A DNA stretch of 27,131 bases. It comes from a virus. The stretch lies in the IMG/VR virus record IMGVR_UViG_3300031673_000388, positions 1-27,131 of that record; one strand, 5' to 3'. A model generated the notes under the pieces. That model did not search any database. It was not told where the DNA came from and saw only the letters and a program-made list of their open reading frames with translations. The position numbers were made by a program, and so were the translations under genes. Positions 5,686 through 25,740 of the stretch are shown piece by piece. Numbering within the stretch: the stretch's first letter is position 1; each line of letters starts with the position of its first letter.

Positions 5686-5698
5686 TATCAGGTAAGTG

Positions 5699-5893
5699 AT
5701 GTTGCTTAGAAACTATGAGAGAAAAGTTATATATCCTGCAGCTGAAAATAAAAATCTGCAGGATATGACTAAAGAGGAATTGTGGCATTTTTGCATTAGT
5801 GAATTCGGTGTTAATTTAGATATTGAAAGATCTATTGAGCAATTACGCGACGAGGTCCAAGAATGTATTTGTTTTTTTAAATTTGAGGAGTAA
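5699..5893 (+). CDS. Small acidic head-region protein, unknown
   Basis: A short gene between capsid and decoration-like genes, about 64 residues from ATG 5699 (a GTG directly before it at 5696 is an alternative start). The sequence has EELWHFCISEFGVNLD, then a helix ending EQLRDEVQE and a C-terminal Phe/Cys-rich CICFFKFEE. The middle resembles short helix-extended-loop-helix segments found in small phage head proteins, but the match is too weak to name. It ends 5 bp before the next start and its last codons carry that gene's GAGGAG ribosome site. Probably real, because the gene packing leaves no other reading. Confidence 0.6.
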   Translation: MLLRNYERKVIYPAAENKNLQDMTKEELWHFCISEFGVNLDIERSIEQLRDEVQECICFFKFEE

Positions 5894-9009: not shown

Positions 9010-10556
9010 TGACTATTTCTAAACCAGAAGTTACAGTTAATATAGTTAGTGCACAAAATTTAGTGGGCTTGAGTTCACAGAAAATACTGTTTGTTGGACA
9101 AATGACATCCGCGGGTACTGCTACAGCAGGAGCACTTGTTGAAGACATAGATAATACGGGCATAGAGGATACGTTGTTTGGTGCTAAGTCTATGCTTGCG
9201 GCAATGATTAGGGCTGCAAAAAGAATAAATAAACAAGTTAGATTTGATGCTATTCCTCTTGATGATGCCGCAGGAACTGAGGCAACAGCGAGCATAGCTT
9301 TTGCCGGTGCAGCTACCGCAGCCGGAACTCTAACTTTCTATATCGGATCTAAAAAGAATAACGCTTACGAGATAGATGTTGCGTTAACAGATACTGGAGC
9401 TGAGATATCCGCGGCTTTAGTTGCCGCGATTACTGCGGACACGCACGCATGTGCTACAGCTGTTGTGGATAGTTTGGCTGCAGATTTAACCTACGTGCAC
9501 GCAGGCTTAGAGGGTAATTTTGTTACTATAAAAATAGAAGGCTCAGTCGCAGGTATTACACCAACGATTACCGGTTTTGCTAGCGGCGCAACTAATCCAA
9601 CGTTAACTGGTATTTTTGATGTTGCTGAAGGTATAAGATACCAAACTGTTGTTTGGCCCTCAAGCTATGTTACAACTACTGTTAACTCTTTTTTAGAGGA
9701 TCGGTGGAATGTTAGTAATCAAGTATTAGACGGTGTGTACATTACTGAAAAGATAGATACCCTAGCTAATTTAAAAACTGCAGCGGGTCTTCTTAATTAT
9801 AAGTCAGCTAATTTATTAGGTAATGATTCTGTCAGTATTGCAGCTAGTCATATTGGCGGCTCTCTAGTTGAATTGCCGCATGTCGTTTCCGCGCAATATG
9901 CTGCAATTAGAGCTTTGCGCTTAGAAGATGGAACAGATATCAGTAGGTATGTTATTTCTCCTTACGGGGCTAGAGATTCTTTCGGGGGTATTGCAATATC
10001 TTCTTTACCGTACGCAAACACTCCTTTTTATGAATTATCAACTATAGATACTGGACTGGGCTTTTCTATAGAAGAAGTAGACGAATTAGAAGAAGTTGGC
10101 ATTACAGTGCTAGGAGATAACCTCGCGAATACTCAAGTTATATTAGGGAATGCTGTCACAACGTACAAAACAGACGCAGGTGCTAATCCCGATCTTAGTT
10201 TTAAATATTTAAATTATGTTGATACAATAAGTTCTATCAGAGAATATTATGTAAATAATTTTAAAGCTAGATTTGCAGACAGTAGGTTAACAGCTGGTGA
10301 TCTAGTTCAAGGTAGAAGTATGGCTAATGCGCAATCTATCCGTGCTTTCGCAATAGGAATATTTACTACACTAAGCGGGTCTGACTATGTGTTAACGCAG
10401 GCTGGTGAAGATGCTCGAAATTATTTTATTAATAACTTAGTTGTAGCTTTAGATTTAAGTTTAGGAAAAGTAACTATAACTATGAAATGCCCAATCGTAA
10501 CTCAACTAAGAGAGATCATTGCTACTTTGCAATTATCGTTTGTAACTGCCGGTTAA
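9009..10556 (+). CDS. Contractile tail sheath protein
   Basis: A 515-residue protein of the Mu gpL-like tail sheath family. Features: N-terminal PEVTVNIVSAQNLVGLSSQK and ILFVGQMTSAG; an inserted Ala/Gly-rich beta domain at about residues 95-205; then YQTVVWPSSYVTTTVNSFLE and DRWN, and a C-terminal region with GRSMANAQSIRAF, SDYVLTQAG and a LDLSLGKVTITMKCPIVTQL segment used for subunit linkage in sheaths. It forms the outer contractile tube that drives DNA delivery. AAGGAGGT precedes ATG 9009, one of the best ribosome sites in the window, in keeping with a high-copy product. It marks the phage as a myovirus morphotype. Confidence 0.93.
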   Translation: MTISKPEVTVNIVSAQNLVGLSSQKILFVGQMTSAGTATAGALVEDIDNTGIEDTLFGAKSMLAAMIRAAKRINKQVRFDAIPLDDAAGTEATASIAFAGAATAAGTLTFYIGSKKNNAYEIDVALTDTGAEISAALVAAITADTHACATAVVDSLAADLTYVHAGLEGNFVTIKIEGSVAGITPTITGFASGATNPTLTGIFDVAEGIRYQTVVWPSSYVTTTVNSFLEDRWNVSNQVLDGVYITEKIDTLANLKTAAGLLNYKSANLLGNDSVSIAASHIGGSLVELPHVVSAQYAAIRALRLEDGTDISRYVISPYGARDSFGGIAISSLPYANTPFYELSTIDTGLGFSIEEVDELEEVGITVLGDNLANTQVILGNAVTTYKTDAGANPDLSFKYLNYVDTISSIREYYVNNFKARFADSRLTAGDLVQGRSMANAQSIRAFAIGIFTTLSGSDYVLTQAGEDARNYFINNLVVALDLSLGKVTITMKCPIVTQLREIIATLQLSFVTAG

Positions 10557-19273: not shown

Positions 19274-19510
19274 ATGAAAGTCACTTTTGCATTCGACACT
19301 GAAAATGAAGATGACAAGTTTAAGTTAAAATGTATGCTGCAAGCTGAAAATATGCACTTTGCATTAGAAGAACTCAAGAACATGCTCAGATCTATTTTAA
19401 AATATGATCAAGGACTTAAGAAAAGCGCTATTGATCAAGTCGAATATATTGACGATGAGTTTTTTCGCATACTAGATGATAATAAAGTTGATTTAGATCT
19501 AGCTGAATGA
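19274..19510 (+). CDS. Small acidic protein after the tail fibre, unknown
   Basis: 78 residues, starting 3 bp after the fibre stop. MKVTFAFDTENEDDKFKLKC begins a pattern I associate with a widespread family of small phage proteins (FDxEnxdDrxxLKxxLxAxxM followed by ALxELxxxLR), here with MHFALEELKNMLRSILKYD. No function is known to me. Its last 12 bp overlap the end of the opposite-strand gene at 19499, marking the point where late and early transcription converge. It could be a fibre-assembly helper or an unlinked regulator. Confidence 0.65.
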   Translation: MKVTFAFDTENEDDKFKLKCMLQAENMHFALEELKNMLRSILKYDQGLKKSAIDQVEYIDDEFFRILDDNKVDLDLAE

Positions 19511-25042: not shown

Positions 25043-25336
25043 TTATTTTATTTTATTTGTATTAGTATCTTGACGAGCTTTTAAGACAGATACATCTACG
25101 TCAAGGGATTCAACAGCTCTTATCATCGCGTACACTTCAACTCTTAGATCTTCGACTTCAATTTTTAATACCTTTTGTGTATCTTCAAGAGTATTTATTT
25201 TTTCTTCAAAGTCATGCCCTTTGCCTAGCATATAGTATATATGGTCATGATCTAGCTTTTGTGTTCTGTTTAATAGAAAAAGTAGCAGCCACATCACAGC
25301 GTAACCTGCTGCGACTAGTATTATAAATACTAACAC
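25043..25336 (-). CDS. Small membrane-anchored coiled-coil protein
   Basis: 97 residues from GTG 25336, with AAAAGGAG well placed upstream. Residues 2-22 are a membrane segment (LVFIILVAAGYAVMWLLLFL) followed by basic residues (NRTQK), which favours a cytoplasmic C-terminus. The rest is helical and charged (FEEKINTLEDTQKVLKIEVE, then DLRVEVYAMIRAVESLDVDV), so it probably forms a coiled coil. It looks like an i-spanin in outline but sits far from the lysis genes. It could tether a replication or host factor to the membrane. Its leader holds two interleaved inverted repeats. Confidence 0.65.
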   Translation of the reverse strand: MLVFIILVAAGYAVMWLLLFLLNRTQKLDHDHIYYMLGKGHDFEEKINTLEDTQKVLKIEVEDLRVEVYAMIRAVESLDVDVSVLKARQDTNTNKIK

Positions 25337-25354
25337 TATTATCTCCTTTTAAGC

Positions 25355-25453
25355 GTAGTCCGACAAAACCTAAAGGGCAAGTTATGAAAGGCAGTCTTTT
25401 GTCGGACTACTTTGCGTTTTTTATTTAAGGAATCCTGCCTGCTTGCCATTTAG
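25355..25453 (-). promoter_or_regulatory. Structured leader with two interleaved inverted repeats
   Basis: IR1: 25355-25368 and 25397-25410 are perfect 14-bp complements (GTAGTCCGACAAAA). IR2: 25370-25381 pairs with 25442-25453 (11 of 12), and, nested inside, 25389-25394 pairs with 25435-25440 (6 of 6). The arms alternate, so each stem uses sequence from the loop of the other. On the leftward transcript IR1 ends 4 bases before the AAAAGGAG ribosome site of the gene at 25043. On the plus strand IR1 is followed by TTTGCGTTTTTTATTT, so a rightward terminator is another reading. Confidence 0.6.
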
Positions 25454-25464
25454 TAAAACTTTAA

Positions 25465-25740
25465 CTATTCGTTGTCTTCAAAATTCTCTAGCATTTCATG
25501 AAAGCCTTTGATAAGTTCTGCTTTAGTATATTGATTTAATTCTTTTTTTAAAATATCAAACTTTCGTTTATCTTTAGCTTTTCTCTTAGTTGTGTCTGTC
25601 TTAGTATACCTTGCATAGTAGTCTGTGACACTAAAATTTCCGTTGATATCAGGTATGACTTTGGTAAAATTAGCTCCAAAATAACCACCATATATCTCAT
25701 ATGATACATCTTTTATTTTAAATTTGCTTTCTGCACACAT
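25465..25740 (-). CDS. Unknown 91-residue basic/acidic protein
   Basis: ATG 25740 with TAGGA upstream, 6 bp after the previous stop. An N-terminal beta-like half (KFKIKDVSYEIYGGYFGANF) is followed by a strongly basic stretch (KTDTTKRKAKDKRKFDILKK) and an acidic helix (AELIKGFHEMLENFEDNE). The basic part could bind nucleic acid. No family recognised. Confidence 0.6.
   Translation of the reverse strand: MCAESKFKIKDVSYEIYGGYFGANFTKVIPDINGNFSVTDYYARYTKTDTTKRKAKDKRKFDILKKELNQYTKAELIKGFHEMLENFEDNE

Follow-up and report, generated by a model that had tools for sequence, protein, structure and literature searches.

This locus raises the question of what two inverted repeats, interleaved with one another directly before the ribosome-binding site of a small membrane-protein gene, might do in a phage genome. 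The window, by which is meant the whole stretch of 27,131 nucleotides analysed, is a phage contig from IMG/VR (record IMGVR_UViG_3300031673_000388). Structural genes (protease, capsid, sheath, baseplate) point rightward and reach to about 19.5 kb; from the right end comes a leftward cluster encoding a family A DNA polymerase, an Enc34-type single-strand binding protein and a DUF2800 exonuclease. Convergent rightward and leftward ORFs overlap by 12 bases at 19499-19510, and since no terminator gap separates them, read-through antisense RNA might be expected. The repeats occupy a 128-nt gap between two leftward genes; only one gap of the leftward cluster is wider, and just two there exceed 65 nt. 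The downstream gene, with a GTG start at 25336 on the leftward strand, had been described as encoding a small membrane protein, and it does look real: its coding score is positive, its codon use is coding-like and its product begins with a hydrophobic segment. The protein has a weak match to phrog_3961 (function unknown, E 1.5e-4). A promoter-like TTGACA-16-TATAGT (11/12) lies at 25041-25014 (-), in the 65-nt gap upstream of the exonuclease gene; promoter-like sites show no overall enrichment in the region around it.

The initial annotation described one fully paired repeat (IR1) and a second (IR2) with an outer and an inner helix, the arms alternating so that each hairpin consumes the loop of the other. 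The coordinates, order and pair counts were all reproduced (Table 1), as was the spacing: four bases (GCTT) lie between the last IR1 arm, which ends at 25355 on the leftward strand, and AAAAGGAG, and the single base 25369 separates an IR2 arm from an IR1 arm. The IR1 pairs are all Watson-Crick and enclose a 28-nt loop. Because the linkers are only 1 and 2 nt long, the full IR1 and full IR2 helices should be mutually exclusive, as had been argued on steric grounds. The inner 6-bp helix of IR2 might nevertheless remain when IR1 forms; the two would make an H-type pseudoknot whose loops measure 24, 2 and 20 nt, which appears feasible by a hand estimate of geometry and energy.

Table 1. Features of the repeat element and its flanking genes (window coordinates; arms named as in the leftward transcript).
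Feature	Position	Strand	Remarks
97-aa protein, downstream gene	25043..25336	-	N-terminal hydrophobic segment, then charged region
Open frame of 36 aa that fills the leader and whose stop overlaps the ribosome site; unlikely to be a gene	25339..25449	-	
AAAAGGAG, ribosome-binding site of the 97-aa gene	25343..25350	-	from sequence
IR1 3' arm, UUUUGUCGGACUAC	25355..25368	-	14/14 with 25397-25410
IR2 outer 3' arm, CUUGCCCUUUAG	25370..25381	-	11/12 with 25442-25453
IR2 inner 3' arm, CUGCCU	25389..25394	-	6/6 with 25435-25440
IR1 5' arm, GUAGUCCGACAAAA	25397..25410	-	
TTTTTTATTT, terminator-like run after the IR1 hairpin	25417..25426	+	p 0.003 (window), 0.02 (local)
UUCCUU, complement of the ribosome site, predicted to pair with AAAAGGAG in the IR1 fold	25427..25432	-	MFE folds
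IR2 inner 5' arm, AGGCAG	25435..25440	-	
IR2 outer 5' arm, CUAAAUGGCAAG	25442..25453	-	
91-aa protein, function unknown, upstream gene	25465..25740	-	

The interleaved repeats are real and unlikely to be a product of chance. Among the perfect inverted repeats of the window IR1 is the longest, and when the complete 27,131 nt were shuffled 100 times with dinucleotides preserved, none of the shuffles contained a perfect repeat of 14 bp with a loop of up to 60 nt; in 1.08 Mb of phage DNA only five perfect repeats of at least 14 bp were found under the same loop limit, IR1 included. Scored by its strongest two perfect stems that interleave, the gap reaches -38.3, compared with a mean of -17.4 and a best value of -29.8 among shuffles (0/400 reach -38.3). 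By this score the gap ranks first among the 844 tiles of the window, and its value is reached by 3 of the 3224 tiles from other phages. Most of the interleaved score comes from IR1; once IR1 is given, complementarity between loop and flanks as good as that of IR2 arises in 22 of 3000 shuffles (p ~0.007). The folding energy of the single best structure is ordinary on both strands (z of -0.8 on the plus and -1.15 on the minus strand). The interleaved hairpins could serve as a small switch in the RNA or as a signal that stops transcription.

Read in the direction of the genes, the element would lie in a leader. A nested energy model of the leftward RNA gives IR1 a probability of 0.93 and IR2 one of ~0.0001, and the IR1 fold is favoured over an enforced IR2 by 5.4-8 kcal/mol, varying with the construct. 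IR1 being far stabler than full IR2, one state is predicted at equilibrium. Scored at core positions that sit one base off AAAAGGAG, the ribosome site was 0.25, 0.13 and 0.06 open in the IR1 fold of three constructs and, in the same order, 0.80, 0.49 and 0.98 open with IR2 enforced, the pair of 0.13 and 0.49 belonging to the longest construct. Thus, of the proposed switch that exposes or masks the ribosome site, the predicted difference in exposure between the folds survives, whereas two coexisting equilibrium states do not. Shuffling the 5' flank raises the mean openness of the site to 0.56-0.60, compared with about 0.08-0.25 in the real sequence, and 1.7-5.3% of such shuffles, depending on construct length, mask the site as strongly as the real sequence does. 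Scrambling one IR1 arm gives an openness of 0.47-0.98. The masking partner in the folded models is UUCCUU; a 5-mer complement of the site with at least two C occurs in 2.5% of local 24-mers. Transcripts truncated at the 3' end fold as IR2 as long as they lack part of the last IR1 arm, and as IR1 once it is whole. A two-step folding path is thereby predicted, with a modest masking signal.

We regard a leader that masks the ribosome site, with a transient open form, as the best reading of the element, and put it tentatively at about one in three. The stretch between the 91-aa and 97-aa genes would then act as a structured spacer of the leftward mRNA that sets the output of the second protein. 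According to the energy model, the nascent leader would fold as IR2 while the polymerase has yet to finish the last IR1 arm; release of that arm would allow IR1 to form, breaking or shortening IR2 and setting UUCCUU against AAAAGGAG, with less access for ribosomes. A burst of translation might come from the transient IR2 form, or from a ribosome or phage protein that disturbs IR1, and the settled state would presumably be one of low expression. Several observations weigh against the leader reading. The start codon is largely paired whether IR1 or IR2 forms; the stems are built of Watson-Crick pairs only and lack the G-U pairs that would reveal which strand is the RNA; the significant U-run on the opposite strand favours another reading; and since IR2 is weaker by 5-8 kcal/mol, it must be given a kinetic role. 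In its full form, a co-transcriptional timer built of two long exclusive interleaved hairpins, in which the ribosome site is open in young RNA and shut once the second hairpin displaces the first, the proposal is improbable.

Other ways for a leader to act were also considered. The 36-aa frame that fills the leader scores -0.19 per codon in codon use, lower than every true coding chunk, and shows no family matches and no clear upstream ribosome site; with its atypical codon use, no clear start signal and no matches, a leader-peptide or uORF mechanism is unsupported. Frameshifting or readthrough at the stop of the upstream gene was rejected as well: another stop in the same frame lies no more than five codons further on, and as read from the sequence the downstream frame is closed by a TAA just 5' of the ribosome site. 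The covariance models of Rfam 15 gave no match at the gathering threshold, and even at E values of up to 10 none fell on the element.

Relatives of the element are scarce. In scans of IMG/VR, neither the flanking proteins (small membrane protein, exonuclease) nor IR1 itself retrieved the region; a scan with an alignment of the single-strand binding protein recovered 80 phages, the best at 51% identity, with the flanking small genes in none; and BLAST of the element against phages and plasmids returned only pieces at chance level. The IR1 core pattern is absent from 296 genomes of the phylum of L005, which may not be that of the host. In IMG/VR the core pattern has one other match, L009, and a looser scan gave 14 matches, all of which except L009 look like chance when judged by eye. 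L009 carries an intergenic hairpin at 2076-2117 with the IR1 core AGTCCGACAAA and a T-run on the gene strand, together with an interleaved second repeat of 13 bp (AAACGGCAACTTA at 2048-2060 with TAAGTTGCCGTTT at 2097-2109) in the same order as in the window. The L009 element (2048-2117) lies between two leftward genes, one of them sigma-factor-like. The scan pattern fixed 20 bases, and the common core was therefore in part selected for; a shared GGCAA and the interleaving fall outside what the scan selected. One example does not establish a family, and the likeness may reflect either descent or coincidence. If the timer were true, L009:2048-2117 would be a second, distant example.

The near relatives by capsid (L006 at 99%, L007 and L008) end short of the element region. 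They share with the window a different hairpin, ATATCCTGCAG/CTGCAGGATAT, at 5731-5766 (+), about 46 nt past the capsid stop and inside the ORF 5696-5893, with counterparts at L007:8195-8230 and L008:898-933. All 11 pairs are kept in the relatives and two have changed on both sides (A-U to G-C, C-G to U-A), paired changes that are suggestive in an alignment of four sequences forming two groups only. L007, 79% identical, also has about 80 extra bases (9766-9847) at the gene junction 7300/7303 of the window; this insert, flanked by TTTTAAAAA at both ends, contains a perfect 17-bp inverted repeat with a 28-nt loop, and the window, L006 and L008 are without it. Near the start of the contig, direct repeats of about 220 bases, about 80% alike, occupy ~234-676 of the window within the ORF 186-1706; L006 and L007 match them repeatedly, also past the left end of the window.

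The opposite strand offers the strongest rival, which the initial annotation had mentioned in passing: a rightward intrinsic terminator, in which the plus-strand IR1 hairpin followed by GTTTTTTATTT would stop an antisense transcript, IR2 being incidental or pairing the loop with read-through RNA. It proved a serious candidate, possible although still doubtful. The plus strand after IR1 reads TTTGCGTTTTTTATTT, that is, TTTGCG and then TTTTTTATTT, so a hairpin is indeed followed by a U-run. The hairpin is stable (about -22 kcal/mol), and nine T in ten at no more than 18 nt from the stem occur at 0.3% of window positions on the plus strand (2% locally). Two extra GC/GC pairs (25353-25354 with 25414-25415) would bring the end of the hairpin to one base before the T-run. 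The L009 hairpin continues from the same core into TTTTTCTTTT, and the inserted hairpin of L007 (9768-9829), like the one in the window, has a T-run (TCTTTTT) on the antisense strand. The form of the hairpin is less favourable: its 28-nt loop is long, a TTT bulge parts the main stem from the T-run, and the main stem ends 6 nt away, rather than abutting the run behind a short loop; a consensus terminator scan, which covers short loops only, leaves it unflagged. The T-run of L009, moreover, is on the gene strand, opposite to that of the window. The genes on both sides point leftward for kilobases, so a rightward terminator would end only antisense RNA.

Three further explanations were weighed. 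An intercistronic hairpin for mRNA processing or stability, serving as an RNase III-type cut site or as 3' end protection with no switching, would account for a perfect 14-bp stem placed exactly between two co-oriented genes, and the 17-bp hairpin at another junction in L007 indicates that members of this phage group gain and lose intergenic hairpins of this sort. Typical RNase III substrates are longer than the IR1 stem, however, and IR2 is left without explanation; we consider processing unlikely. Slightly less credit is given to a neutral origin, with IR1 a functionless inverted duplication and IR2 a coincidence of scanning 27 kb. The p of only 0.007 for IR2 and the other long perfect repeats in phage DNA fit such an origin, whereas the interleaved score unmatched among shuffles speaks against it, as does the location of the element: the genome is dense with few gaps, and the element lies in one of them, immediately ahead of a ribosome site. 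Less likely again is a site acting in DNA, where a regulator or recombinase would bind a pair of sites: the arm centres are, from their coordinates, 42 bp (about four helical turns) apart, and stems free of G-U suit such a site, but the arm has no further copy in the window, no integrase or repressor was recognised among the nearby genes tested, and the T-run is left unexplained.

The element is ordinary in kind. If the leader switch is true, the membrane-protein gene of an uncultured phage would be timed by RNA folding alone, with neither ligand nor protein; if it is not, the locus would hold an ordinary terminator or mRNA-processing hairpin. Rho-independent terminators resemble the element in the order of hairpin and T-run on the plus strand, and differ from it in that the phage element has a 28-nt loop and a basal bulge and lies antisense to all nearby genes. 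In the type I toxin mRNA aapA3 of Helicobacter pylori, metastable hairpins that sequester the Shine-Dalgarno (SD) sequence form co-transcriptionally (PMC6733600), and the likeness to the leader proposed here is that mutually exclusive folds succeed one another as the RNA is made and determine SD access (PMC6733600). The transient hairpins of aapA3 mask the SD, in contrast to the phage element, whose transient form is predicted to expose it. The aapA3 structures are backed by covariation and in vivo DMS probing, whereas the phage element is known from its sequence and an energy model; a toxin and an antisense RNA belong to the aapA3 system, and the phage element shows neither.

In the repY-repZ leader of ColIb-P9, repY is reportedly a real leader ORF, and it is two loops that pair. 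As in the phage element, interleaved pairing is reportedly combined there with a small ORF that ends at the ribosome site of the gene after it. The phage 36-aa frame, in contrast, does not look like a coding frame, and whole stems interleave. The IncI-alpha pseudoknot is cited in PMC10724649 from Asano and Mizobuchi. The gene 32 leaders of phages T4, T2 and RB69 contain a pseudoknot that is bound by gp32 in translational self-control (PMC3014915), and they share with the element a place in a phage leader and interleaved helices upstream of a ribosome site (PMC3014915). Gene 32 encodes the protein that binds its own leader, whereas the gene downstream of the phage element encodes a membrane protein; compared with the gene 32 leader, the phage element has long helices joined by linkers of only 1-2 nt.
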